Part shown: piece after piece, positions 4,181 to 33,135 of the stretch | How the letters are laid out: the number at the start of each line of letters is the position of its first letter | Numbering within the stretch: the stretch's first letter is position 1 | Assembly: GCA_002457595.1 (NCBI GenBank) | Contig: NTJR01000005.1 | Coordinates: 1 to 38,345 of the forward strand | Reading direction: 5' to 3' | Length of the DNA stretch: 38,345 nucleotides | DNA from: Marine Group II euryarchaeote MED-G36 | GTDB taxonomy: Archaea; Thermoplasmatota; Poseidoniia; Poseidoniales; Thalassarchaeaceae | Notes under the pieces: generated by a model | Told to the model about the DNA's origin: nothing | Databases searched by the model: none | The model's input: only the letters and a program-made list of their open reading frames with translations | Position numbers and translations under genes: made by a program

Positions 4181-4662
4181 TATTGCTCACCTCCGAGCTC
4201 AATTCCATCGATCTCCATATTAGATCGCATGTGAGAGACTGAACGATATGAACCACCCTTAGCCTTCCTGTAATAGTAACGATATTCCGATGCAGTAATT
4301 GATTCGCTTTCACGCATCGACTTCAATTCCTTTCTCTGAGCACGAATAGTTCTCATCCATCGGCTCTTTCGAGGATGTCTTGCATTTGCAGAACCCTTCC
4401 TAGAACCATGTCCTGTTCGGCGTCCCTTTGCTTTCTGAGCCGATGCCTTTCGGGCACGGCTTCGACTAGTACCAACTAGAGGTCTTGACTTGATTATGCC
4501 TTCTTCAATCAAGCGACGAACGTCTTCTTTCTGAACTGCGTTAGCAACCTCATCTAATGCCTGTGGACTTGGGTCAACCCAAATTCGGTGGACACCAACT
4601 TTTCGTCCCTCTCGCTTACTGAAAATTTCAGCCGCAAGACGCTTCTGATTAGTAATCATCAT
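4180..4662 (-). CDS. rpl19e: Ribosomal protein eL19
   Basis: Archaeal/eukaryotic-specific large-subunit protein that reaches from the tunnel-exit side toward the subunit interface. The N-terminal helical bundle with KRLAAEIFSKREGRKVGVHR, the strongly basic middle (RSRARKASAQKAKGRRTGHG) and the long C-terminal helix are the family pattern. At 160 residues it matches archaeal members. The gene begins with two consecutive ATG codons; the first overlaps the eL32 stop (CAATGATG) and is preceded by a GGGGGA site, so I chose 4662. Starting at the second ATG would shorten it by one residue. Confidence 0.96.
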   Translation of the reverse strand: MMITNQKRLAAEIFSKREGRKVGVHRIWVDPSPQALDEVANAVQKEDVRRLIEEGIIKSRPLVGTSRSRARKASAQKAKGRRTGHGSRKGSANARHPRKSRWMRTIRAQRKELKSMRESESITASEYRYYYRKAKGGSYRSVSHMRSNMEIDGIELGGEQ

Positions 4663-7677: not shown

Positions 7678-8111
7678 TGATCAGCACCTCCGTTAGAACG
7701 TTCAACGATGCTCTTTCTTCGTAGAGGATCTGCATCATTTAATTTAGTGACAATTAAGTTTGAGGGGTGAAGAGGAACTGCCTCTTCCTTTCCATCAGCA
7801 GTAGTTTTTGTGACGCCATCAACAAAGACAATTCCTTTCTTAGTATCGACACTAGCAATGGTGGATTTAACTCCAGCACGACCACGACTCTGACCTAATC
7901 TCTTGCCACGTGAATCTGTTTTGACACTATTTGGGAATCCAAAGTCTCCGCGAAGAACTTCAACAGTATCGCCCACTCTTACAGTTACTGAGCGGACTGA
8001 CTGAAGTTCAGGATCGTCTGTTATTAGACGCGCGCGCATTCTCTTGCGAAGGACGTGAATTGGAGCATCGGTCTGAGCCTGACGCTGTTTTCCTGCTTTC
8101 TTACTTACCAT
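7674..8111 (-). CDS. rpl24: Ribosomal protein uL24
   Basis: Early-assembly large-subunit protein near the polypeptide exit. The KOW motif is visible at about residues 42-60 (VRVGDTVEVLRGDFG), preceded by the archaeal-type basic N-terminus (HVLRKRMRARLITDDPELQ). The C-terminal half continues with VDTKKGIVFVDGVTKT and HPSNLIVTKL, all typical. It is 145 residues, slightly longer than many archaeal uL24. The ATG at 8111 has an AGGTG site. Confidence 0.96.
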   Translation of the reverse strand: MVSKKAGKQRQAQTDAPIHVLRKRMRARLITDDPELQSVRSVTVRVGDTVEVLRGDFGFPNSVKTDSRGKRLGQSRGRAGVKSTIASVDTKKGIVFVDGVTKTTADGKEEAVPLHPSNLIVTKLNDADPLRRKSIVERSNGGADQ

Positions 8112-8119
8112 TCTAACAC

Positions 8120-8518
8120 CTACACTATTTGTTTCGCTGTTGCAGCGATTCTAGGCCAGCGCTCTGCCGCTTCACGGCTTACTGGACCCTTGATATCGGA
8201 ACCCTTGACTTCACCACGCTCGTTGGTAATGACACAGGCATTATCCTCAAATTGAACCCAAGTTCCGTCAACGCGACGGAAAGGACGTCTTTGGCGAACA
8301 ATTACTGCATTGAATATCTGACGACGGGTTTCAGGAGTACCTCGACGTACGGTTACGCGGATCATATCACCTACGCCACCCGCAGGATATCTGCGAGCCA
8401 CACCACCTTTTTTCAGGACAGTGATTAGTTGAACGACCTTTGCACCGGTGTTGTCCACACAGTCCATTCTGGCCATGCTTGGAAGACCTGCGGTTGAATT
8501 TCCTGCAATTCCCCTCAT
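8120..8518 (-). CDS. rpl14: Ribosomal protein uL14
   Basis: Large-subunit interface protein that forms inter-subunit bridges and is part of the site where the anti-association factor aIF6 binds in archaea. The conserved MDCVDNTGAKVVQLITVL, RYPAGGVGDMIRVTVRRG and RVDGTWVQFEDNACVITNER segments identify it without doubt. It is 132 residues. The ATG at 8518 overlaps the uS17 stop codon, which indicates translational coupling. Confidence 0.97.
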   Translation of the reverse strand: MRGIAGNSTAGLPSMARMDCVDNTGAKVVQLITVLKKGGVARRYPAGGVGDMIRVTVRRGTPETRRQIFNAVIVRQRRPFRRVDGTWVQFEDNACVITNERGEVKGSDIKGPVSREAAERWPRIAATAKQIV

Positions 8519-8847
8519 TCAACTTCCCCCTTCTCAATTACGCAGAATTTTACAGTCTTCGATAGTGGCCTACATTCCATTATTCGGACACGTTCTCCAC
8601 TAGAGACCTCACCAAGACAAGATGGAAGATGAGCTGCATATCGGCGAGTTCTCTTCTCGTATCGTTCATACTTCTTCATGTAGCGAGTGACTTCTCTTTC
8701 AACAATAATTGAATTTGTCATTCCTAAGGAAGATACAGTTCCTTCGATAATCTGACCGCGTACCCTCAAGCTCCCATAGAATGGACAATTCTGGTCTCCA
8801 TCCCATTCACCCTCTGGTGTACTGACATCTACTCCAATATCTTTCAT
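8515..8847 (-). CDS. rps17: Ribosomal protein uS17
   Basis: Primary 16S rRNA-binding protein with an OB fold. The segments CPFYGSLRVRGQIIEGTVSS, the RYMKKYERYEKRTRRYAAHL stretch and RIMECRPLSKTVKFCVIEK are the archaeal uS17 pattern. I chose the ATG at 8847 (110 residues, begins MKDIGVDV) because it has an AGGAGGAAC site at the right distance and lies one base beyond the Rnp1 stop. An upstream in-frame ATG at 8913 would overlap Rnp1 by 65 bases and has no support. Confidence 0.96.
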   Translation of the reverse strand: MKDIGVDVSTPEGEWDGDQNCPFYGSLRVRGQIIEGTVSSLGMTNSIIVEREVTRYMKKYERYEKRTRRYAAHLPSCLGEVSSGERVRIMECRPLSKTVKFCVIEKGEVE

Positions 8848-8848
8848 T

Positions 8849-9106
8849 TCAGTTCCTCCTGTATCTTCGGTTAATTCTGTCCTCTGGACGTTGTGTAACG
8901 GATGCTCCATCAATAACGTCCTTATCAGAATCTATGGTGAATGTGATGACATCTTTAGGCAGAGTTAAGATTCCAGAAATTGTACGGACTCGCAGGGTTC
9001 TGCGAGTTTCTTCAACAATCATTCCAGATACTCCGACCAATGTTGGATCCTTACTCTCAACAACGCTAATGTTTCGAGCCAACCAAGGTGCATGATAGAG
9101 ATTCAT
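8849..9106 (-). CDS. rnp1: Ribonuclease P protein component 1 (Rpp29/Pop4)
   Basis: Protein subunit of RNase P, the enzyme that removes 5' leaders from pre-tRNAs. In archaea this subunit pairs with Rpp21 and contacts the RNA specificity domain. The compact Sm-like core is seen in VGVSGMIVEETRRTLRVRTI and LPKDVITFTI. At 85 residues it is normal for archaeal Rnp1. It sits between aIF1 and uS17, the position commonly seen in archaeal ribosomal clusters. The ATG at 9106 overlaps the aIF1 stop and has a GGAGGTG site. Confidence 0.94.
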   Translation of the reverse strand: MNLYHAPWLARNISVVESKDPTLVGVSGMIVEETRRTLRVRTISGILTLPKDVITFTIDSDKDVIDGASVTQRPEDRINRRYRRN

Positions 9107-9406
9107 TCAGCGCACCTCCACTTGGTATCCATTCTGTTCGAGAACTTTAGCAACACGCTTCTTGTGTTCGCCTTGGAGTTCTATAGTTCGGCCTTTCACA
9201 GTGCCTCCACTAGCGCAAGCACCTTTCAGGAGCTTGGCAAGCTTACCAATGTCGATTGCAGAATCATCGATTCCTTCAACAATAGTAACCATCTTTCCAT
9301 ACCTCCTTCTTACAGTTGAAATTATTGCTTTTTGTTGTTCCTTTGCTATTTCTTGGCATATGCATAATTCATCAGGTAAACCACATAGATTGCAAATGCC
9401 AGCCAT
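9107..9406 (-). CDS. sui1: Translation initiation factor aIF1 (SUI1 family)
   Basis: Initiation factor that binds the small subunit near the P site and enforces correct start-codon choice. The SUI1 fold is recognisable in RRRYGKMVTIVEGIDDSAID, LAKLLKGACASGGTVKGRT and IELQGEHKKRVAKVLEQNGY. The N-terminus carries four cysteines (C5, C8, C15, C17), a likely zinc site found in many archaeal aIF1 proteins. It is 99 residues. The gene is embedded between uL29 and rnp1 and is presumably co-expressed with the ribosome. The ATG at 9406 has an AGGAGT site. Confidence 0.95.
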   Translation of the reverse strand: MAGICNLCGLPDELCICQEIAKEQQKAIISTVRRRYGKMVTIVEGIDDSAIDIGKLAKLLKGACASGGTVKGRTIELQGEHKKRVAKVLEQNGYQVEVR

Positions 9407-9412
9407 TCAATT

Positions 9413-9616
9413 CTACTCCTTAGTCTCCTCAGACATCTTAGTTAGAAGTCGGGCTATGGTTCGACGAGTTTGTTTGTAAGCACCAGCATCGGAGGAAGAA
9501 CCTCCAAGAGCCTGTTGAGCACGAAGTTGCAAAAGCTCTTCCTTCAGTTCAAGAAGTCGGCGCTCCCTTTGCTCAGGGTTCATCTGATCGATGTCGCGTG
9601 ATTTGATGTGTGTCAT
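9413..9616 (-). CDS. rpl29: Ribosomal protein uL29
   Basis: Small two-helix large-subunit protein beside the polypeptide tunnel exit, where with uL23 it helps form the docking site for nascent-chain factors such as SRP. The helical pattern REIDQ-like N-terminus (KSRDIDQMNPEQRERRLLEL), KEELLQLRAQQALGG and KQTRRTIARLLTKMSEE is typical. It is 67 residues. The ATG at 9616 overlaps the uS3 stop (ATGA) with a GGAGGG site. Confidence 0.96.
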   Translation of the reverse strand: MTHIKSRDIDQMNPEQRERRLLELKEELLQLRAQQALGGSSSDAGAYKQTRRTIARLLTKMSEETKE

Positions 9617-10464
9617 TCGCCACCCTCCTCAGAACCTTCTTCGACTTCGACTGTTTCAACTACTTCTTCAGCATCTTCAGTTTCGATTTCAACATCCGCT
9701 TCTTCTGCAGCAGCCTCAATCTCGGCCATCTTCTCAACGACATTGTCGGCGACTTCTTTGGCATCTGTCTGAGCAGCCTCATCGACTACTGGAGCCTCGG
9801 GCTCCTCATCTGGGATTTCTAACATCGAGACTTCTTCGATTGGACCAAGGCCAGATTCGGCACGATCTTGTATGCTAATTTCGTGGGGTAACTTGACACC
9901 AGGGCGCATAATACGGACTGTACAACCAATAGTTCCAAGTTTCTTAACCGCAGTAGCAAATCCTTCATCCATGAATTCTAGAGCAGTTTCGCCACAGAAC
10001 TTGATGTGCCCCTTCTGGAATTTCTGAACTCGATGACGAGCACCTGAAATCTTTCCACTGAGAATAATCAAGCAGCCTCGGGCACCGGCATCCATAATGT
10101 TCTGTGAAGTGCTGTGTCCAGCTCGGCGGAAGAACCAACCGCGCTCAAGTGAAGAAGCAAGTCGGCTGGCCATAACTTGAGCATTAAGACGAGGTTCCTC
10201 TATTTCGTTGACTTCCAAACGAGGTTTGTCAAGATTAAAGTCCTCTTGTAAACGGCGCTGGAGTTCGTGAATTACTTTTCCACGTCGACCAATTACTCGA
10301 CCGACTTGTTCTGCTTGTAGTGTTACTTTTGTGCCCTCAGGAGTTCGGTTAAACTCAAGGCCTCCAAATCCAGCACGCTCGGTTTCTCTAAGAAGAAATT
10401 CACGTACTAATTGACGCTCAATATTTCGGTGAATGATGTTACGAACGGTATTTGTTTTACTCAT
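9613..10464 (-). CDS. rps3: Ribosomal protein uS3
   Basis: Small-subunit head protein lining the mRNA entry tunnel. The N-terminal KH domain holds the GRRG loop at about residues 59-62, followed by the C-terminal uS3 domain (RGCLIILSGKISGARHRVQK, GCTVRIMRPGVKLPHEISI). The final 65 or so residues are a highly acidic, alanine- and glutamate-rich tail (EIETEDAEEVVETVEVEEGS), probably flexible. I chose the ATG at 10464 (283 residues, starts MSKTNTVRN) because the GAGGTGA site is five to six bases upstream. An ATG three bases earlier is possible. An upstream start at 10515 would overlap uL22 and is not supported. Confidence 0.96.
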   Translation of the reverse strand: MSKTNTVRNIIHRNIERQLVREFLLRETERAGFGGLEFNRTPEGTKVTLQAEQVGRVIGRRGKVIHELQRRLQEDFNLDKPRLEVNEIEEPRLNAQVMASRLASSLERGWFFRRAGHSTSQNIMDAGARGCLIILSGKISGARHRVQKFQKGHIKFCGETALEFMDEGFATAVKKLGTIGCTVRIMRPGVKLPHEISIQDRAESGLGPIEEVSMLEIPDEEPEAPVVDEAAQTDAKEVADNVVEKMAEIEAAAEEADVEIETEDAEEVVETVEVEEGSEEGGE

Positions 10465-10474
10465 CATATTCACC

Positions 10475-10999
10475 TCAGAATTCGTCCTCTTCCTCTTCCT
10501 CACCGAAGTGCTCAAGGAAAATCTCTAGATTGATTTGGTAGTGATTCTTCGGAGTTGCACGGCCCTGCGCACGAGGCTTCCATCCAGAATGGACCTGGCC
10601 TCGGTGAGCAGCACAGTGAGTTATCACCATATCTTCTGCATCGATTGTATCATAGCGTTGACGAGCATTTTCCATAGCGCTGTTAATGAGTTTGATGAAA
10701 ACCTTGGATGCCTTGTTAGGGAATTTTCCAGGACCCATCTTACCCTTCCTGTGTCCGGCCATTGTGTTTCCACCCTTGCCCTTACGGGAACGTCGAGTGT
10801 ATGGGATTGCTTTCTTTTGTACAATTACCATCTCAAGGTACTCGATAGCCTCAACACAATTCATTCCACGCAGGAATTTAGCGATTTGATAGCAATGCTT
10901 GTGATGTACGTCAACATTTACTGCACGTGCAGTTGAGAGGTATGAACCCTCGAGCAATTGTGTGTATCCAGATTGTGGTTTTCCTGATATCCTACTCAT
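10475..10999 (-). CDS. rpl22: Ribosomal protein uL22
   Basis: Large-subunit protein whose beta-hairpin lines the exit tunnel. Conserved segments: LRGMNCVEAIEYLEMVIVQK, PNKASKVFIKLINSAMENAR and the hairpin region with HRGQVHSGWKPRAQGRATPK. The acidic C-terminus (HFGEEEEEDEF) is common in archaeal forms. I chose the ATG at 10999 (174 residues) because a GAGGTGA site precedes it by six bases; a GTG three codons upstream would place that site inside the gene. Confidence 0.96.
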   Translation of the reverse strand: MSRISGKPQSGYTQLLEGSYLSTARAVNVDVHHKHCYQIAKFLRGMNCVEAIEYLEMVIVQKKAIPYTRRSRKGKGGNTMAGHRKGKMGPGKFPNKASKVFIKLINSAMENARQRYDTIDAEDMVITHCAAHRGQVHSGWKPRAQGRATPKNHYQINLEIFLEHFGEEEEEDEF

Positions 11000-14775: not shown

Positions 14776-14799
14776 CCCTGACTTTGTACATCAGTGTCC

Positions 14800-17400
14800 A
14801 TGAAGGCCATTCTTCGACATGAACACCTCGCAGAGGGGCAAGTTGAAGCGAGAGCTTACCAATTAGAAGCGGTTGATGAGGCTCTATCTGGTTCTTCTCT
14901 ACTTGTTCTTCCTACGGCAGCCGGTAAGACTGCTGTCGCTTGGTTAACAATCGCAGAGATGCTTCGCAGAACTGAGGGCTGGGCGTTGATGCTGGCACCT
15001 ACTGTAGCCTTAGTGAAACAACATATGGATGATTTAGAACGAGTTTTTGCTGGTTCTGGAATTAAACCACTTTCAATGAGTGGGGCGGTTTCAGTTGAAA
15101 AACGTCAACCTCTATGGGGTTCAAGCCGCCTAATTGTCTCAACTCCACAAGTCGTTCGCAACGATGTCAATAGAGGCGTATTAGATCTGCGTGATTGTTG
15201 TATTCTAGTTGTTGATGAAGCACACCACACTACAGGTGAAAGAGGAGAAGCACAAGTCGCAGATTTGTACTTGAGTTTGGCTAGCAAACCACTTATCCTA
15301 GGGATGACTGCTAGCCCAGGATCTAACTTCGACAAGGTCGACGAAATTTGCAGACGGCTAGAAGTTGAAAGAATCCACATTCGTTCATCGACGGAACCAA
15401 TGTTATCTGAACATCTAGCATCTCTAGATATTGAAGAATTGAGAGTTAGAGTTCCAGACGAAATTCGTGAGTTAGCCGAGCCTTTTGTACGATGGCAGGA
15501 AGGCATAGTCGATAGAGAAAGAAGACTTGGCAGATATGTCATGAGTGGGGCAGTTACTCATTCAGGACTAGCTAATGCAATGGATAGGTCAAAAATGGCT
15601 GTAAACAGAGGTGAAGCGAATGCTTACTCTTCGATGAGTCAGATTGGCCTTGCAATGAGTCTGCACCACCTAATTAATCACCTTCTTTGCCAAGGAACTG
15701 CAGCTTCCAAGGAATTCTTAGATAGAAAGGAAACTGGTGGAGATTCTGGAAAGAAGAATACACGTAATCTACTCAGAGATCCGCGAATTCAGAGTCTCAG
15801 AAAGAGTCTAGAAGAAATGTCTGAATCGCATACAAAAGTTAGCGCAATACGTCGATTAGTACGTGAAAGGTTACGTCGTGACCCCGAATCCCGAATAATT
15901 GTTTTCGCTACTTATCGAGATACAGTAGGAGCTCTAGAAAATGTCCTTGAGGGATTGGAGGGCGTGAAGCCAATTCAATTCATAGGACAGAGTAAACGGG
16001 GTTCTGGAAAAGGCCTAACACCAAAGCAACAAGTTGAACGAATTGAAAAATTTCGCAATGGCGAAGGAAATGTTCTGATTGCGACAAGTGTAGGAGAGGA
16101 AGGTTTGGATATCCCTTCCGCTGACTTAGTCATATTCTACGAGCCGGTTTCAAGTGAAATTCGAAATATTCAGCGCAGAGGCAGAACCGGCCGACATCGC
16201 GATGGAGATGTTGTGGTTTTGATTGCAGAAGAAACTAGAGATGAAGGGGCTCGCGCTGCGGCCCTTCGAAGAGAGGAATATATGCATAGAGCCGTATCGA
16301 AAGTTCGTAGGAAATTGACTCGCAAAACTCATCATGATTTATCTAATCTAGATTCATTCCAAGTAGAAAGAAAAAATGAGTTTTGTGCTGCTGTTGAATT
16401 TGTTAAAGAAATAAGAGAAAAACACCGACCGGAGTTTGCAACTGAAGAAAATGTTGAGTCGGACCCTGAGGCTGAGAGAATTCCAAATTTACCCCCGTCA
16501 ACATTCAGACCTAAAGGACAAACAGGACTTGAAAATTTTCGGGCGACAAAAACAATACCAGATTCAGAAAAGGAAATCTATCCTTCAGTTAATGCAAAAA
16601 AGGATGATGCAGAAACCACTCTTTCAGTAACACAAAACGTGACTGAACTTAATGAATCTATACTTCCAGATGTTCCTGGTGCAACTATTACTGCAGATGA
16701 TAGGGAACTGAATAGTGCAGTAATAGCCCGATTAAAGGCCATGGGTGCTGATGTGAAAATAGACAGGTTGCTTACTGGTGATTTTCGCATTGGTGAAAGG
16801 ATTCTTGTCGAGCGAAAGACCGTGCGTGACTTTGTTGATTCATTAGTTGACGGTAGGCTTCTTGAACAAGCTTCAAGGATTGTTGGAGCCGCCCCTCGAT
16901 CGTTGATACTCATTGAAGGAGAGGGGTTATTCAGATCTACAAGAGTTCACCCACATGCATTAATGGGTGCCCTAACTACACTGACTCTTGATTTCGGAAT
17001 CCCTGTTGTTACTACAAAGGATGGAACCGAAACTGCTAGGTTTCTCATTGTAGCCTCAAGACGTGAAGAATCTATGCTAGATGGATTGAGTTCGAATGCT
17101 CGTGAACGATTGGAGTCAGGTAGACCCGAATTATGGACAGACCCTATGATGCAGGCAGCGGCTGGAGTTAAGGAATTACGAGATATAGATGATGAAAGAG
17201 TCGCCACAAGAGATCTCCTAGTAGCTATTCCGAGTGTTGATAAAGAACTTGCAAATCATCTTCTTGATAAATTTGGAACAATAGCCGGACTAGTTTGGGC
17301 AGATGAAGACGAACTTCGACAAATTGAAGGGATTTCTGAAACACAAGTAAGGGAAATCTGGAGAACATTTCGCTCGGGTGAGAAAATTAGTCACCGATAA
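14800..17400 (+). CDS. hef: Hef helicase-nuclease (FANCM/XPF family)
   Basis: Repairs stalled or branched replication forks: an SF2 helicase joined to an XPF-type structure-specific nuclease. Helicase motifs: LPTAAGKT (residues 37-44, Walker A), VVDEAHH (about 140, DEAH box), GMTASPG, and in the second RecA domain ATSVGEEGLDIPSADLVIFY and QRRGRTGRHRDGDV. After a variable charged linker comes the ERCC4 nuclease domain with GDFRIGERILVERKT (about residues 663-673), so the GD...ERK catalytic residues are present. Tandem helix-hairpin-helix motifs follow (LLVAIPSVDKELANHLLDKF, QIEGISETQVREIWRTF). The total of 866 residues fits the complete archaeal form. ATG at 14800 chosen; a GTG two codons upstream is possible. 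It overlaps the convergent HdrB-like gene by 14 bases. Confidence 0.95.
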   Translation: MKAILRHEHLAEGQVEARAYQLEAVDEALSGSSLLVLPTAAGKTAVAWLTIAEMLRRTEGWALMLAPTVALVKQHMDDLERVFAGSGIKPLSMSGAVSVEKRQPLWGSSRLIVSTPQVVRNDVNRGVLDLRDCCILVVDEAHHTTGERGEAQVADLYLSLASKPLILGMTASPGSNFDKVDEICRRLEVERIHIRSSTEPMLSEHLASLDIEELRVRVPDEIRELAEPFVRWQEGIVDRERRLGRYVMSGAVTHSGLANAMDRSKMAVNRGEANAYSSMSQIGLAMSLHHLINHLLCQGTAASKEFLDRKETGGDSGKKNTRNLLRDPRIQSLRKSLEEMSESHTKVSAIRRLVRERLRRDPESRIIVFATYRDTVGALENVLEGLEGVKPIQFIGQSKRGSGKGLTPKQQVERIEKFRNGEGNVLIATSVGEEGLDIPSADLVIFYEPVSSEIRNIQRRGRTGRHRDGDVVVLIAEETRDEGARAAALRREEYMHRAVSKVRRKLTRKTHHDLSNLDSFQVERKNEFCAAVEFVKEIREKHRPEFATEENVESDPEAERIPNLPPSTFRPKGQTGLENFRATKTIPDSEKEIYPSVNAKKDDAETTLSVTQNVTELNESILPDVPGATITADDRELNSAVIARLKAMGADVKIDRLLTGDFRIGERILVERKTVRDFVDSLVDGRLLEQASRIVGAAPRSLILIEGEGLFRSTRVHPHALMGALTTLTLDFGIPVVTTKDGTETARFLIVASRREESMLDGLSSNARERLESGRPELWTDPMMQAAAGVKELRDIDDERVATRDLLVAIPSVDKELANHLLDKFGTIAGLVWADEDELRQIEGISETQVREIWRTFRSGEKISHR

Positions 17401-18244
17401 CAGCGATGCGGGTTCGGAGCATGGCTAATCTGTCATTGTGGCAACCAAGTGCAAACGATAACATCTCACATAGATGAATCACAGGGATATTCGTGGCCAA
17501 CCCTGTATTCCGACCAGCCTTTCCTTGGTATATGTCAAGTACTGCATGAGACAGATTACAGGCGCTAACAATCAATTCTGCGCCTTCGGCCTTGGCTTCA
17601 GAAAGAGCTTCAGCAGCCTGCTTCATTACAGTAGACTCCTCTGAAAATAGTCCAGGAACACCTACACTTTGAGTGCGAGACTCCCAGACAATTGGAGTCC
17701 CACCAAGAGCTGAGATGACCTGTTCTAGATAATTAGGATCAAAGACATCGTCACCGCCACACATACCCTCCTGCTGCATATTTGGACCATAATAACCGGC
17801 AACAGTAAAATCGATCGGGTTTACAATCTTCTTTTCCAAAACATCAATCCCTATTTCATCGACTATGACATGAAGGAGATGATGAACGGATACGTCTCCA
17901 GTAAATGTCAAACCACAAGTTTTGGCAAGCGTATCGTTAATCTCTTTCAATAGAATTTGATCACTCTTCAGAGTAGCCAAATCTTCATTCAAATTCCCTG
18001 CAGTAGCAGCGCATGGAGTCATGATGTCAAGCCCTAGGGCCTCCGCCATTGCAAAAGTTCGAGCATTGAGAGTCAACTGTAAACGTCTGTTAGCCTGACG
18101 GACAATACCTGCACCACAACTAGTTGCACCATTCAATGGAACAAGCGTAATGTTTAGTGTATGTGCCAAAGACTCCATTGTTGTAGCAACCTCTGGAGCA
18201 CTGCTGTGAGCTACATTTCCTGGATGGTAAGCATATTTAGCCAT
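17387..18244 (-). CDS. HdrB/SdhE-like CCG-family protein with most cluster cysteines missing
   Basis: Resembles subunit B of heterodisulfide reductase, the C-terminal half of thiol:fumarate reductase TfrB, and SdhE of type-E succinate dehydrogenases. The scaffold is clear: YHPGNVAHSSAPEVATTMES, LNARTFAMAEALGLDIMTPC, FTGDVSVHHLLHVIVDEIGI, VAGYYGP, EGAELIVSACNLSHAV. In HdrB ten cysteines in two CCG motifs bind two noncubane clusters. Here, by my eye alignment, only C43, C78 and C229 remain; the others are N10, S42, T81, P154, S193, V194 and S232. There are other cysteines (C110, C162, C259, C268) at unrelated positions. The gene is 285 residues, complete, nine bases after the upstream fusion gene and with a GAGGTG site, so it is co-transcribed with it. 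The original Fe-S chemistry is unlikely; the actual function is unknown. Confidence 0.8.
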   Translation of the reverse strand: MAKYAYHPGNVAHSSAPEVATTMESLAHTLNITLVPLNGATSCGAGIVRQANRRLQLTLNARTFAMAEALGLDIMTPCAATAGNLNEDLATLKSDQILLKEINDTLAKTCGLTFTGDVSVHHLLHVIVDEIGIDVLEKKIVNPIDFTVAGYYGPNMQQEGMCGGDDVFDPNYLEQVISALGGTPIVWESRTQSVGVPGLFSEESTVMKQAAEALSEAKAEGAELIVSACNLSHAVLDIYQGKAGRNTGLATNIPVIHLCEMLSFALGCHNDRLAMLRTRIAVIGD

Positions 18245-18253
18245 AATAACACC

Positions 18254-20218
18254 TCAGAATCTCCCATCTAATTCGTTGAATATAGCCACAACTTCGTGAT
18301 GATTGTCAACAGACGAATTGAATTGGCGAGGCATCTTTCCAACACCGGCCGGAGGTGCTACTAATGCAAGCATATCATAGAACATGTCGCCTCCAGTTCG
18401 GGTGAATCCAGTAACCATCCTTGCGGTAACTCCAGAAGTCAAATTGCCAAGAAGTCCGATTGGCCCTAATACCTGTCTGTAGAGAACGGTATCATTCACC
18501 TTCCCACTACTCTTCAAAGTCCAGGTGTACCACCAAACGTGCTTACCATGCCTACCATTGTAACCATCTCCTTCGAGGACATGGGTTTTGGCATCAAGTA
18601 AGGCATCTGCAATAATTGCTGCAGAAGGATTTTGTCGACGAATACTAGTGAAATCAGTCTCAGCCTTAATTCCATTTGAAGAACTGAGAGTAGCATCCAT
18701 AGATGCAACAGAGCCTTGAGATGAACGTGGATCGTTACGTCTAGCCCATATGCTAGACAATACAGATGGACCTAGATATCCATTTGCATAAGGTGCTGCA
18801 TCTGAAGACGCATGGAGTAAGGCAGCACTACAGAAATCAGTAACCGAGTGCAAGGCACTAGCTGTATTTCCATCCATAATCCCTATCGTGCCTTGGGGGG
18901 TAGAAGCTCCTTCTCGAGTTGCGGCGACCATCCAAGGCTTAGATGACTCTCTTTTGCGCTCTAGAGACCAATGATCTACAACAAGGTCCCTGACTACATC
19001 AAATCCAGGAAGTGGGTCTATTCGAAGACGGAGTGTGCCATCTCTCATTGGGGCAACAGAGTCGATTCGAACAGTTCCAGGAAGGATAAGACGACCGTTC
19101 ACACAGATTGCTGTTGTAGGATCATTAGTTGATCCATCTCTAAATGACAGACTACCATCATGAGTACTCTTTAGCATTCGAAGAACTTCTAGCATACTCA
19201 TATGACCGGGGAGTGAACATACCCAAGTGTCTGCACCTGTTGATGCACTTTCTGGGTCATATCGGAATATTGAAATCTCAGCAGGAATTGATTCACTAAG
19301 TATATTTGGAACAGTAAATCCATCTTCACCCTCAGCGCCGCTGACATCACCGGCAGCGTGAGCCATCATTGCTTCAACCATATTTTCATGGAACACGCCA
19401 GTACCATCTACGGCAGCCATAGCTGCAAGAGAATTAACCGCCCATTCAGATGCAGGAGACTCATAATCAACATCACAATCAACGCGATCAATAAGTCGAG
19501 TTGCACCAAGTTTCTCAAATTGCTCATCCCAATCCTTTCCAGATTCACAGTAGAATTCGTAACTTGAATCTCCAAGTGCACAAACAGAAAAGTGCACTCC
19601 ACTCAGCATTCCTGCAGCACCTTTCTGTGCCGCATTCCAGAGTTCTTCTGCATTATCCGGCATCTCACCTTCGCCCCATGTCGAGCATACAATGAGGACT
19701 CGCTTCATCGATGAAAGAGAGGATAAATCAAAACCATCCATGTCATGAACTGTACCTTCCAAACCATAGTTGGCAGCCTGTTTGGCAATCTTAGCCGCAA
19801 CTCCTTCTGAGTTTCCGGATTGCGAACCGAACAGAATTGCGAGACTTCTATCGCCTACACTGAGTAGTTCCCCCAAGTCATCTCCTGCAATTTCCACAGG
19901 TTCGGCTACAACTTCCTCTGACTCTTCCTCAACCACTGGGGTTTCTTCTACAAGAGTGGGGGTCGAACCACCCTCTACAATGATAATGACATCAACAGGA
20001 CAGGCATCGGCTGCATCAAGCAGATCATCCTTGAATTGAGATATAAAGTCCTGCTTCAAAGCGCTTTGAGATTCATTACGATCGTAGCCGCCATCAACTC
20101 TAGAATCAGGCTTAATGAAGCAGGTATCATCGGTAACTTCGAAAACCTCTGGTAAGGTTTCTTCACAAGCATCACAGGTAATACAACCATCTTCGATGTA
20201 AACGCTGACAATGGACAT
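18254..20218 (-). CDS. Ferredoxin-flavodoxin-SdhB-like fusion protein
   Basis: Three parts in 654 residues. Residues 1-80: single-cluster ferredoxin with C12-x2-C15-x2-C18 and C73-P, complete for one [4Fe-4S]. After an acidic linker (88-115), residues 125-270: flavodoxin of the diflavin-reductase type, with FGSQSGNSEGVA (130-141), CSTWGEGEMPDNAEE (178-192) and ALGDSSYEFYCESGKDWDEQ (214-233) for FMN. Residues 313-654: a chain that follows the succinate dehydrogenase Fe-S subunit (EISIFRYDPE, SMLEVLRMLKSTHDGSLSFR, LRLRIDPLPGFDVVRDLVVD, YLGPSVLSSIWARRNDPR) and a TfrB-like tail (PPAGVGKMPRQFN). The 2Fe-2S motif is replaced by RDGSTNDPTTAIC, and the CxxCxxCxxxCP motifs by DFCSAALLHASSD and TDFTSIRRQNPS, so the SdhB clusters cannot form as usual. 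The chain may carry electrons through its own ferredoxin and FMN instead. No flavoprotein SdhA lies nearby. Partner: the HdrB-like gene downstream. Confidence 0.8.
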   Translation of the reverse strand: MSIVSVYIEDGCITCDACEETLPEVFEVTDDTCFIKPDSRVDGGYDRNESQSALKQDFISQFKDDLLDAADACPVDVIIIVEGGSTPTLVEETPVVEEESEEVVAEPVEIAGDDLGELLSVGDRSLAILFGSQSGNSEGVAAKIAKQAANYGLEGTVHDMDGFDLSSLSSMKRVLIVCSTWGEGEMPDNAEELWNAAQKGAAGMLSGVHFSVCALGDSSYEFYCESGKDWDEQFEKLGATRLIDRVDCDVDYESPASEWAVNSLAAMAAVDGTGVFHENMVEAMMAHAAGDVSGAEGEDGFTVPNILSESIPAEISIFRYDPESASTGADTWVCSLPGHMSMLEVLRMLKSTHDGSLSFRDGSTNDPTTAICVNGRLILPGTVRIDSVAPMRDGTLRLRIDPLPGFDVVRDLVVDHWSLERKRESSKPWMVAATREGASTPQGTIGIMDGNTASALHSVTDFCSAALLHASSDAAPYANGYLGPSVLSSIWARRNDPRSSQGSVASMDATLSSSNGIKAETDFTSIRRQNPSAAIIADALLDAKTHVLEGDGYNGRHGKHVWWYTWTLKSSGKVNDTVLYRQVLGPIGLLGNLTSGVTARMVTGFTRTGGDMFYDMLALVAPPAGVGKMPRQFNSSVDNHHEVVAIFNELDGRF

Positions 20219-25562: not shown

Positions 25563-25708
25563 CAGAAACAAATTGTTGCGGCTTCAATTTGTGTATGAAG
25601 GTTCGCTAATTGCGTGCGGCACTCTTTGAAAGTTACATCTTCGTGATTTGGAGAATTTATTTACCTCAAGTAACCACTTCGAATAATGCTAATAGGAATG
25701 AAGGCCTT

Positions 25709-26854
25709 ATGTTTGCTACTAGACGCGAGACACCTATGGCAAGGCGAGATAAACCACTCTTGCCCAGAATTGTTCTGATAACTATAGTGCTTGGACAGGT
25801 TACTGTTGCACCTATAGTTGGATTCTCACTAACTTATTTGTTAAAAATTGAAAGAGTAGATGACCAATTGGCATTTAATCTAGATTTAGGTTCATTATAT
25901 TGGATTATCATTGCTGGATTAGTTTATGGATTGCTATCCTTATTTTTAGCTCTAATTGCTGGAGGATACAGACCCACAAGTGTAGCCAACAGAGGGGGTT
26001 GGATTACTGTTCTAGGATTAAGGAGGCCAGTAAATTCTTCAGAAATTGTAGAACGTGCAAGATTAGATTTACATCGCAGCCCATATGGAAAGATGGCAAG
26101 AATTGTGAACAGTAAATCAGAAGATTATGATCTATTATCGATTCATGGAGGTTTGCAAATTCTTGCCATTCCAATCCAAGTAGCGCTTATTGCAATTCCA
26201 TTGGCTATAATGGAAGGTATTCCCTCAAAATACATTGAACCTGATCACGCATTTGAGTTAGGAATGGCGGGATATTTTGTAGCACTGTGGTTTGGCCTTA
26301 GACTTCAACCAGTCTACTCAATCCACCTAATTGGCATTGCTGCTTGGTTTCGAAAAATACTTGCGAAAATCTCTAAATTTTCATGGATATTGCCAATCAT
26401 CATATTTTGGTTCTTTGCTAGAATTAGTCTAGAGTTAGGACTTTCTTGGCTCGATGTTGATTATTCTGCTTGGCATACTGTTCAACTAGAAGCAGTTTTA
26501 CTAAACACAATTATGCCGGAAGAAAGTATTCCTGATGCTGCAATTATTGATTTTCTTGTTGCAATTTCAGTCCTACCTGTGGCTGTGTTTACTACAATCT
26601 CGGTACTTGGTGGTGCCCATGATATGCCTAATTGGATGAGAGACCAAGAAGAAAAAATAGTGAATCTAAATCAGGATGTGCTTGAGGAAAAAAATAAGCA
26701 GGAGAATGAAGAAGAAGAAACAGACCCCCTAGATGGATTCGCCCCGTGGAAAAGAACCACCAATAGTGATAATGACTCAACCAATGAGGAAGAGAATAAT
26801 CAAGATCAAGGGAGCCGCATGATTGATTTGCCATTCAATTTGTTCGATGATTAG
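25709..26854 (+). CDS. Polytopic membrane protein of unknown function
   Basis: A 381-residue protein with six to seven hydrophobic stretches, for example LPRIVLITIVLGQVTVAPIV, LYWIIIAGLVYGLLSLFLAL, GLQILAIPIQVALIAIPLAI, AGYFVALWFGLRL, LPIIIFWFFARISLELGL and FLVAISVLPVAVFTTISVLG. The C-terminal 85 or so residues are soluble and strongly acidic (ENEEEETDPLDGF, then asparagine/glutamate-rich). No catalytic motif was seen. I chose the ATG at 25709 because an AAGG-like site precedes it; ATG at 25736 is an alternative, and an earlier GTG at 25610 lacks support. The 146-base region between it and the divergent surface-protein gene contains AT-rich TATA-like stretches (TTTATTTA near 25656). Confidence 0.6.
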   Translation: MFATRRETPMARRDKPLLPRIVLITIVLGQVTVAPIVGFSLTYLLKIERVDDQLAFNLDLGSLYWIIIAGLVYGLLSLFLALIAGGYRPTSVANRGGWITVLGLRRPVNSSEIVERARLDLHRSPYGKMARIVNSKSEDYDLLSIHGGLQILAIPIQVALIAIPLAIMEGIPSKYIEPDHAFELGMAGYFVALWFGLRLQPVYSIHLIGIAAWFRKILAKISKFSWILPIIIFWFFARISLELGLSWLDVDYSAWHTVQLEAVLLNTIMPEESIPDAAIIDFLVAISVLPVAVFTTISVLGGAHDMPNWMRDQEEKIVNLNQDVLEEKNKQENEEEETDPLDGFAPWKRTTNSDNDSTNEEENNQDQGSRMIDLPFNLFDD

Positions 26855-30750: not shown

Positions 30751-33078
30751 TCACATCGAACCCAAAACAGGGCCCACGAGTAGGCTAATTAGTAGCCAAC
30801 CACCTAACATTGCACTGGCCAACCCCCAGGCACGTGGACGGATTCCTACACTCGAACTTCCAAGTGTTCTAGGTATTGGCCCAGTGATTCCAATGATTAT
30901 TCGAGCAATGGAAACTGAAAGACCAGCAGAAACAATCAATCCAATTAGAATCATTGTAGCCATAATTACTCCAATAATTCCGGTTCTAGCTACTGAACCC
31001 ACCCCCTGTGCAACTAAATCTGGTGTCCGTAACCAAATTAGCCAAGCAGACCATAGCCCTAAATGTACATCATCACTAAATGAAGATTCAGTGCGCCATT
31101 TTCTGTAAACTTCGGGAAGCTTTGAGTGAATAATCGCAGATAACCAGTCAACCTCAGGAATTCGACCATTCAATAGAGTACGGACTCCATGGTACATCAT
31201 TAGGATGCAAAGGAATGCCTCGATCCAAGTCCAATAAAATCCTAAGCCAATTGCTGATAATAGAGAAATAGGGACTGCCCAAATCGCGAATCCTGAACCT
31301 GCTGCTAATAGAGTAAGCAACATTCCAGCACCAGGAACAAGAGGTTCCTCAGGTTCCTCATAACGCCTTTCTCGAGGCATAGACAGAATGAATAAGGGTA
31401 GTAATGCAGTACCCCAAAGTAACGCTATAGGATCAATTACAGAATGACCAGAACCTTTTCTTGCGTCTTCCACGGCCTCTGATATTTCTGTGCTAGAAAG
31501 TGTCCCAGGAGCCCAACTAGTTACAAATCCCCCCGCATCAATTATGATTACGGAATCAGAAGCCCCACTAGGAAATGATTTCCCTACCGAAGAATCTGCC
31601 CTATCCATTAGTAGTGGCCATGATTCATTAATTAGGAGTGAGTGAGAATCAAGATCTACTGCTCTAACTCCTTTTCCGGTAGCGATTTGAACAAATGAAA
31701 TATCCCTGTCTATTAACTCATCAGCCATAATAAAATCATTAGCCTGACGAGCAGCATTGGGAGAACCTGGGACATAAATTCCAACAACAACAGCATCGGA
31801 TTGTGAAAGTAAATCACTGAGGGAAATTGATCCTTCGCCACCATGTTCTAGTAATGTGAAAGCGGGTGCAGCCCCCTCAAGTCGAGGTTGATTAGCATCA
31901 ATATCTGGAAGATTAACTGCTGGACCAATACTAGCAATTGCAAGTACGATAATCACCAAATAGGCAGGAAGAGGTAACATGGCCTCTTTCATCGAAGCAC
32001 CTAACCAAGCAATTATCCCTAGAGGGATTAGTACCGCCACCCATGTCCCACTAAGTATCGCCTTGGGGTCTTCGGGAACTTCAAAACGAAGAACTGCAAT
32101 CACGTCACAAGGATCTGCTGGATCTTGATCAGATAAGGTGAGACAAGCATCAATCATGTAAATGCCAGGAGTTAATGGCTTGGCTACAGACCAAGTTCTT
32201 ACGGTTCTATTACCTTCTCCAACTCTAAATGAATGTGGTGATTCAAAGTGCTCTAACCTTTGTTCCTCCTGACCAAAACCATGTACCATTGAGGACCAAT
32301 CATCCATTGGTCCAACAACCTCAATAATCTGAGCGGGATAATCATCAGCCCCCCATGGTGAAATTGGAGTAAATTCAACACGAACCATTCGATTGTTATC
32401 AAGTAAAATATCAAGTTCAGGATCTACTAAATCACCAACTAGAGTTATTCCTGAACGTGAATCAAAGGTACCCCACCAAAGTGTTCCAGCTTGTGCACAA
32501 TCATGCTGAACATCAATAGAAAGAGAAAAAAAGTCACCGGGACCAATTGATACATTAACATTCTCAATTTCAATAGAAAACTGATGAGCATTGGTGTACG
32601 ATTCCTCCATTGTCACACTATTTGTAGACATTGAATCGATTAAACTGAATCCACCCCACGAGAGTGAAACAAAAAATGTCGTAGTAGCACCTGCTGGAGT
32701 TCCCGGAATTAAATTAGTTTGACGGCACAATGGTGATTTTGCATTTAATGAAGCAAATAGATTTACTATTACACTACCATTGAAAGAAACTGCTTCATTT
32801 ATTGGCGCAGAGTCTATTGAAAGAAGGTTTTGAGTTGTTCCACTAGTCTTTGAAAATGAGGCTGCACCCAACGGCACACCTGTGAGAATTGGCCATGAAC
32901 GTTTCAATTCCGGTTCTTCTTCAGTTCCATGTAAGAAAATATTGTGTTCCGTTGGAAGAATTAATTCAATCCCAGGGCCATCGCGCTCTTCTGCAAATTG
33001 AGCAGAACCAAGTGAACTAGCAAGATTTGCAATTAGCAATAATATGACTACTCGAGTCACAACTCCATGACTTGCCAT
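30751..33078 (-). CDS. Envelope protein with redoxin-like domain and multiple membrane segments
   Basis: A 775-residue protein of unknown function. It has a signal peptide (VVTRVVILLLIANLASSLGS), an extracellular beta-rich half of about 340 residues, a membrane pair (TWVAVLIPLGIIAWLGAS, LPAYLVIIVLAIASIGPAV), then a thioredoxin-fold domain (about residues 405-545: GAAPAFTLLEHGG, AVVVGIYVPGSPNAARQAND, SDSVIIIDAGGFVTSWAPG) that resembles the AhpC/TlpA redoxin family. The position of the redox CxxC reads GSPNA, so thiol chemistry is absent. Several further membrane helices and a long hydrophobic C-terminus follow. The ATG at 33078 has a GGAGGGTG site. The tRNA-Trp gene starts 57 bases downstream on the same strand. 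Confidence 0.65.
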   Translation of the reverse strand: MASHGVVTRVVILLLIANLASSLGSAQFAEERDGPGIELILPTEHNIFLHGTEEEPELKRSWPILTGVPLGAASFSKTSGTTQNLLSIDSAPINEAVSFNGSVIVNLFASLNAKSPLCRQTNLIPGTPAGATTTFFVSLSWGGFSLIDSMSTNSVTMEESYTNAHQFSIEIENVNVSIGPGDFFSLSIDVQHDCAQAGTLWWGTFDSRSGITLVGDLVDPELDILLDNNRMVRVEFTPISPWGADDYPAQIIEVVGPMDDWSSMVHGFGQEEQRLEHFESPHSFRVGEGNRTVRTWSVAKPLTPGIYMIDACLTLSDQDPADPCDVIAVLRFEVPEDPKAILSGTWVAVLIPLGIIAWLGASMKEAMLPLPAYLVIIVLAIASIGPAVNLPDIDANQPRLEGAAPAFTLLEHGGEGSISLSDLLSQSDAVVVGIYVPGSPNAARQANDFIMADELIDRDISFVQIATGKGVRAVDLDSHSLLINESWPLLMDRADSSVGKSFPSGASDSVIIIDAGGFVTSWAPGTLSSTEISEAVEDARKGSGHSVIDPIALLWGTALLPLFILSMPRERRYEEPEEPLVPGAGMLLTLLAAGSGFAIWAVPISLLSAIGLGFYWTWIEAFLCILMMYHGVRTLLNGRIPEVDWLSAIIHSKLPEVYRKWRTESSFSDDVHLGLWSAWLIWLRTPDLVAQGVGSVARTGIIGVIMATMILIGLIVSAGLSVSIARIIIGITGPIPRTLGSSSVGIRPRAWGLASAMLGGWLLISLLVGPVLGSM

Positions 33079-33135
33079 AAGCACCCTCCAAGTTGCCGTT
33101 GTTCAGTCGGCATTCAAACCCCCCGCCTACTCGAC

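Follow-up and report, generated by a model that had tools for sequence, protein, structure and literature searches.

The window analysed here, i.e., the whole stretch of 38,345 nucleotides, comes from a 57%-complete MAG (G000, contig C36), whose relatives belong to Marine Group II (order Poseidoniales, family Thalassarchaeaceae). Few uncultured archaea of the surface ocean are as abundant as the Poseidoniales. On the minus strand, at positions 18254..20218, an open frame with orthologs across the order encodes a 654-aa fusion protein, in which a ferredoxin (Fd) is followed by a CysJ-type flavodoxin (Fld), an SdhB-like domain devoid of cluster ligands (SdhB*) and a C-terminal extension. The gene of a 285-aa HdrB/SdhE-like partner (HdrB*; 17387..18244, minus strand) starts nine bases downstream, in the same frame.

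We read the synteny in 80 loci from the GTDB collection; in those with flanks, the gene order is always aminotransferase, membrane protein, secreted protein, thermosome, fusion, HdrB*, Hef, L3 and L4. SdhB* and HdrB* are adjacent in all loci where the contig holds both genes, and two loci of identical sequence (L059, at 8016-10979, and L164) carry them as one natural fusion, i.e., a single 987-aa frame in which the last SdhB* residues are lost. Among the other genes of the window, that of the Hef helicase-nuclease (14794-17400) encodes 868 aa, against ~580-600 aa for the syntenic ORF of most Thalassarchaeaceae loci (L003-L082), which suggests that the nuclease part is absent or split in the short forms. 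A 777-aa ORF (30751-33084) has no Pfam match at E 1, and a 414-aa ORF (25610-26854), without NCBIfam match, has syntenic homologs in most loci.

HdrB* was found in 113 of the 116 Poseidoniales genomes, including all 30 of those that are at least 90% complete, and is essentially single-copy. The SdhB* profile gave full-length matches in ~80 of the sampled Poseidoniales genomes; in the phylum sample, no full-length match was found outside the order and none in MGIII, which belongs to the same class. Matches elsewhere were partial, and the four that were read turned out to be canonical SdhB. Pairwise dN/dS values of 0.02-0.07 for both genes indicate strong purifying selection. Some MAG copies are faulty (fragments at contig ends, an odd insertion in L070). 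Because of this order-wide conservation, the fixed synteny and the low dN/dS, the fusion gene cannot be regarded as a product of chance or as an artefact.

Domains and cluster ligands of the fusion and its partner

The first-pass annotation had read this open frame as ferredoxin, flavodoxin and SdhB-like domain, in that order, and had proposed domain searches as a check. Pfam and NCBIfam indeed returned a ferredoxin, a CysJ-type flavodoxin and an SdhB-like part, and every statement made then about the sequence itself holds. The N-terminal [4Fe-4S] ferredoxin (residues 9-78; 19985..20194, minus strand; Fer4_13, 3.5e-7) carries C12, C15, C18 and C73, and, as expected of a [4Fe-4S] ferredoxin, the CxxCxxC...CPV ligands are retained in 59 of the 59 ferredoxin-type relatives scored. 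The FMN-type flavodoxin domain (residues 125-264; 19427..19846, minus strand) is matched by Flavodoxin_1 at residues 128-253 (3.6e-32), by the flavodoxin part of CysJ at residues 124-269 (3.5e-40) and, at the level of the fold, by the CysJ flavodoxin domain 1ykg (TMt 0.92). This core flavodoxin is found in all intact members of the fusion family, and its FMN loops are intact among the relatives, except in the divergent L148. Together with the kept motifs, these matches bear out the intact ferredoxin and diflavin-type flavodoxin described earlier. The L148 protein (G305) is the most divergent fusion, with 724 aa, an unusual flavodoxin loop and a long branch.

SdhB* (residues 313-501; 18716..19282, minus strand) is an SdhB by homology. 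It is matched by Fer2_3 at residues 315-417 (1.9e-9), by NCBIfam SdhB models at residues 313-492 and 318-499 (~1e-13, far below their cut-offs) and by PDB SdhB chains (4.8e-11, profile A1), and its predicted fold agrees (TMt ~0.8). On the contrary, when aligned to canonical SdhB, it fails the cluster-ligand criterion of that family. In the lost [2Fe-2S] loop (19076..19132, minus strand), residues 363, 366, 369 and 381 are S, D, T and G, and the ligands of both clusters in the helical domain (residues 462/465/468/472 and 520/523/526/530; 18629..18835, minus strand) are lost as well. Counting the twelve ligand columns in ~117 relatives, we found that 11 are never Cys and that column 369 is Cys in two sequences.

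The AlphaFold model of the fusion alone has a pTM of 0.35, and that of the fusion joined to HdrB* a pTM of 0.62, with a higher pLDDT in the middle of SdhB*. The joined model is an artificial in-frame read-through of the window pair, made with an alignment to 42 other rows (A6), and the read-through tether may partly cause the contacts. Its fold matches are HdrB (8rwn_B, TMt 0.89) and SdhB/FrdB (TMt ~0.8). One chain from Helicobacter pylori, PDB 3kwl (514 aa), spans the SdhB*-HdrB* part (E 1.5e-13, TMt 0.67, 11% identity, rmsd 9.8) and is possibly its bacterial counterpart.

HdrB* is matched by CCG in Pfam (6e-10), by the HdrB and MFR SdhE models of NCBIfam (~1e-36) and by PDB HdrB chains (5.8e-29). 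Canonical HdrB and SdhE have two CCG domains, each bearing the site of a noncubane [4Fe-4S] cluster (5+5 Cys), with ten ligand columns which, in window numbering, are 10, 42, 43, 78 and 81 for the proximal site, and 154, 193, 194, 229 and 232 for the distal one. HdrB* fails this criterion: in the window, the proximal site reads N10 S42 C43 C78 T81 (2/5 Cys) and the distal site P154 S193 V194 C229 S232 (1/5 Cys). The distal site is down to C229 alone in all HdrB* sequences with a complete C-terminus. The proximal site is whole (CCCCC, thus 5/5 + 1/5) in eight rows (L124, L127-L131, L149 and L150), which sit at the base of both families, Thalassarchaeaceae and Poseidoniaceae. It reads NSCCT in the remaining Thalassarchaeaceae and NSDC followed by S or A in the remaining Poseidoniaceae, with NGDCA in two. 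The tree requires two losses of the proximal site, a single loss being rejected (AU p 0.012). C78 and C229, one per pseudo-symmetric half, are kept wherever readable, i.e., in essentially all sequences, and the architecture of HdrB lets us infer that C78 would lie near C229. HdrB* is not an ordinary HdrB and has lost most cluster ligands of its own. By homology, the pair is of the SdhB-HdrB kind, yet it fails the ligand criteria of both families.

Descent of the pair, its N-terminal module and the reductase

The first-pass annotation had left to be checked whether the same genome has a separate, cysteine-complete SdhAB. It does: a separate SdhA-SdhB is encoded in the window's genome (L001), its SdhB having all cluster cysteines. 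SdhB* matches this SdhB of the same organism weakly (6e-4). The SdhB* of a Poseidoniaceae member aligns with the SdhB of L134 along 317 positions that take in the C-terminal extension (BLASTP, 2e-14), and this SdhB belongs to an SdhA-SdhB-SdhE operon found elsewhere in the phylum. In that comparison, the closest canonical match of HdrB* is the SdhE of the same operon (32% identity). The extension of the window fusion (residues 502-654; 18257..18715, minus strand), which has no domain match of its own in Pfam or NCBIfam, is by this BLASTP homologous to the tail of SdhABE-type SdhB. Since one operon is nearest for both genes, the most likely ancestor of the SdhB*-HdrB* pair, judged from these similarities, is an SdhB-SdhE pair of the SdhABE type that lost SdhA. 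SdhA was never found adjacent to SdhB*, thermosome and Hef being the neighbours in all loci with flanks. Such a descent supports the previous reading of a rewired SdhB/HdrB module, of which the electron path itself remains inferred. As for the canonical SDH operon of Poseidoniales, it opens with a gene for a 270-290 aa membrane-protein-like product before SdhA-SdhB (L136:3247-4059, L140:8725-9591, L139:8308-9162), seen in relatives more complete than the window's genome and possibly an unusual anchor.

The core formed by flavodoxin-SdhB* and HdrB* is constant, and the N-terminal module varies: it is a ferredoxin in 60 rows, a second flavodoxin in 41 and nothing in 13. This interchangeability, the ferredoxin being one of three states, had escaped the first-pass annotation, as had the ligand loss of the HdrB-like neighbour and the separate reductase treated below. 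On a core tree built from SdhB* and HdrB*, with the HdrB ligand columns excluded, the N-terminal state changes 19 times, including between close sisters. Indeed, the cores of L017 (Fd) and L036 (Fld) are 96.0% identical and those of L005 (Fd) and L020 (none) 97.0%, and sister rows with differing modules share 96.8% (L030/L072), 96.4% (L015/L029) and 94.2% (L064/L077) of their core residues. A single origin of the flavodoxin-type module was rejected by a one-clade constraint on the core tree (AU p 1e-65), and the flavodoxin tree requires several origins or transfers of the N-terminal flavodoxin. The second flavodoxins arose several times, with duplication of the core domain accounting for at least part of them, and a number of rows look exchanged between lineages.

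The ferredoxin-less forms could have been caused by a missed upstream or frameshifted ferredoxin. We read 450 bases upstream in three frames in 14 such loci and rejected this explanation, a ferredoxin being seen solely in L067; the other absences are real losses, or the contig begins inside the gene. In L067 (~4200-4520), one in-frame stop, which is a sequencing error or a true split, stands between an intact-looking ferredoxin and the flavodoxin. Both the ferredoxin form (L069) and the flavodoxin form (L039) occur in AG-422 records, apparently single-cell genomes, and therefore module switching cannot in general be put down to chimeric bins.

Cluster loss and the replacement of ferredoxin by flavodoxin both save iron, and we infer that iron economy drives them. 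MAG names encode the Tara province (naming rule, PMC5769542), and among Tara-province MAGs the ferredoxin is found in 0/11 from the Pacific and South Atlantic vs 5/7 from the North Atlantic, Arabian, Red and Mediterranean provinces (p 0.0025). This comparison was chosen after the names had been seen and is uncorrected for kinship, and we treat it as a lead.

A further element is a CysJ-type reductase encoded apart from the fusion. PF00667, the FAD domain of such reductases, is present in 111 of the 116 Poseidoniales genomes and in 30/30 of the near-complete ones; beyond the order, MGIII alone has it among the families listed in the phylum sample. The reductase of the window's genome (L212) corresponds to the FAD/NADPH half of CysJ and lacks a flavodoxin (CysJ match, 1.2e-108), so that the FMN flavodoxin plus FAD/NADPH part that defines a CysJ-type diflavin reductase is present there across two genes, whose physical pairing is inferred. 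The sulfite/nitrite reductase domain (NIR_SIR) was found in 0/60 Poseidoniales genomes by a search positive in 11/14 control genomes, and on this ground we rejected a role of the CysJ-type parts in sulfite reduction.

The syntenic ortholog of this reductase is standalone in some genomes and, in others, has its own N-terminal flavodoxin (diflavin). Scoring the reductase type mostly by open-frame length, we counted 40 standalone and 0 diflavin reductases in genomes with a ferredoxin-type fusion (among them G179, assigned by hand since its sequence reads CITCDVC), 1 and 11 in genomes without N-terminal module, and 10 and 8 in genomes with a flavodoxin-type fusion. A reductase with its own flavodoxin is thus found in 0/40 ferredoxin-type vs 19/30 ferredoxin-less genomes (Fisher 8.6e-10, kinship ignored). 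On the tree, ~4 independent contrasts support the link and 0 oppose it, a number too small for significance (p ~0.06-0.25); for instance, G188, with a ferredoxin-less fusion and a flavodoxin-bearing reductase, lies beside G144 and G316, with a ferredoxin and a standalone reductase. On the other hand, 11 ferredoxin-less genomes carry a standalone reductase, which counts against this link. The flavodoxins of the reductases group close to those at the N-terminus of the fusion. This grouping, together with the distribution, therefore suggests that a shuttle module always stands between reductase and core, on either protein, with one exception (G294).

The separately encoded NADPH reductase is thus likely the electron donor of the fusion. 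Five MGIII genomes (G003, G082, G095, G170 and G176) have an FAD_binding_1 reductase of ~381-438 aa without the SdhB* fusion, and the reductase family therefore has other possible partners. The gene neighbours of the reductase, an MBL-fold protein and a biotin carboxylase, give no pointer to a substrate.

Proposed function of the pair and known systems

We propose that the pair would be a soluble two-subunit redox complex derived from the SdhB-SdhE part of SdhABE, i.e., of a thiol- or menaquinol:fumarate-reductase-type enzyme. SdhA would have been dropped. SdhB would have stayed as a scaffold without ligands, joined to a CysJ-type flavodoxin that would provide an FMN in place of the iron-sulfur wire. 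Electrons may flow from NADPH to the FAD of the order-wide CysJ-type reductase, the probable donor, which lacks a sulfite reductase partner, then to the N-terminal ferredoxin or flavodoxin acting as a shuttle, to the FMN of the core flavodoxin and finally to HdrB*. In basal HdrB*, the acceptor would be the one five-cysteine noncubane-cluster site; in HdrB* of the window type, C78 and C229, at the old site, would probably perform thiol/disulfide-type chemistry, perhaps as a redox-active pair, the system having presumably been losing iron stepwise. Thioredoxin reductases offer precedents for the reduction of disulfides driven by ferredoxin or flavin. At the level of sequence, we have shown the homology, ligand loss, conservation, module switching and link to the reductase; the direction and order of electron flow, the binding of FMN and clusters, and the thiol/disulfide chemistry are inferred, without biochemistry. 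Taken as a whole, this model of a reductase-fed, flavodoxin-rewired complex with HdrB* as acceptor has, in our estimation, an even chance of being right.

Another reading, possible though doubtful, is that the ferredoxin/flavodoxin part distributes electrons as a hub to many enzymes (radical-SAM, P450, methionine synthase), SdhB*/HdrB* being a mere scaffold or regulator without chemistry. CysJ-type flavodoxins serve many acceptors, all SdhB ligands and most HdrB ligands are gone, and most genomes searched have no Flavodoxin_1 beyond the fusion and the reductase. However, separate free flavodoxins exist in some genomes, and HdrB* matches the rest in conservation (mean column identity 75%, dN/dS ~0.03), with C78 and C229 kept. 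The complete five-cysteine site of the basal lineages therefore indicates that HdrB* had a chemistry after the fusion formed.

The facing of one invariant Cys per pseudo-symmetric half of HdrB* may also recall Asp/Glu racemases, and a sub-threshold match to Asp_Glu_race exists (3.4e-4), so that HdrB* might be a cofactor-free, non-redox enzyme or binding protein. We consider this improbable: the match lies under the Pfam cut-off, the best folds are HdrB, and the obligate flavodoxin/ferredoxin linkage speaks for a redox role. It is very unlikely, too, that SdhB* is an alternative SdhB docking on the canonical SdhA to form a soluble fumarate reductase or succinate dehydrogenase linked to flavodoxin. 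The SdhB fold is retained and an SdhA is present in the genome, but SdhB* is far closer to SdhABE-type SdhB (2e-14) than to the organism's own (6e-4), no cluster could accept electrons from the FAD of SdhA, and the canonical operon, which SdhB* never borders, has its own SdhB and membrane protein gene. Finally, a decaying relic or an assembly or annotation artefact, as the many lost ligands and the faulty MAG copies (contig-end fragments, the L067 stop, the L070 insertion) could suggest, is hardly credible for an order-wide single-copy gene under such selection, with intact ferredoxin and FMN motifs and both forms in apparently single-cell records.

Returning to the flavodoxin-rewired complex, the pair is present in practically every Poseidoniales genome, yet we found no description of it in the literature searched, where the first-pass remark that no described protein with this domain order was known also stood. 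A canonical complex II and an incomplete Rnf were reported in MGII (Tully 2019, PMC6336850), in a paper from which the terms flavodoxin and heterodisulfide are absent. The pair offers a graded natural series of iron-sulfur-cluster loss in a Complex II/Hdr-type enzyme, from one full site plus ferredoxin to neither. Ferredoxin and flavodoxin are usually exchanged as separate proteins; here, the swap takes place between close relatives and at the level of a domain within a single protein. More tentatively, and with somewhat less than an even chance, this would be the first HdrB-type reductase known to have abandoned its noncubane clusters, twice independently, in favor of a flavodoxin-fed cysteine pair, with a domain-level exchange of its Fd/Fld input, probably iron-saving, and a shuttle flavodoxin moved between the complex and the NADPH reductase. 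The model predicts FMN, an NADPH reductase partner, two active cysteines and a dependence on iron supply.

Among known systems, 3kwl, listed in one paper as of unknown function, covers the SdhB*-HdrB* fold with one chain, and no flavodoxin or ferredoxin match was noted for it. HdrB, subunit B of the CoB-CoM heterodisulfide reductase (5odc, 8rwn), shares its full-length fold with HdrB* (TMt 0.87-0.89), but the distal site of HdrB* has one Cys in all sequences and the proximal site was lost twice, eight basal rows keeping it in full. As in CysJ of sulfite reductase, both the flavodoxin (3.5e-40) and the separate FAD/NADPH half (1.2e-108) are CysJ-type in Poseidoniales; unlike in CysJ, the genome of the window encodes the halves by two genes, the flavodoxin forms one chain with SdhB*, and no sulfite reductase hemoprotein was found (0/60). 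In composition, the pair resembles SdhABE/MfrABE (8-methylmenaquinol:fumarate reductase) and TfrAB, which have SdhB-like and SdhE/HdrB-like parts in the same order as the pair, SdhABE-type SdhB also sharing the homologous C-terminal extension. Unlike MfrABE and TfrAB, the locus has no SdhA, i.e., no fumarate-reducing FAD subunit, and the pair has no SdhB ligands, one noncubane site or none, and a flavodoxin together with an Fd/Fld module fused in front.
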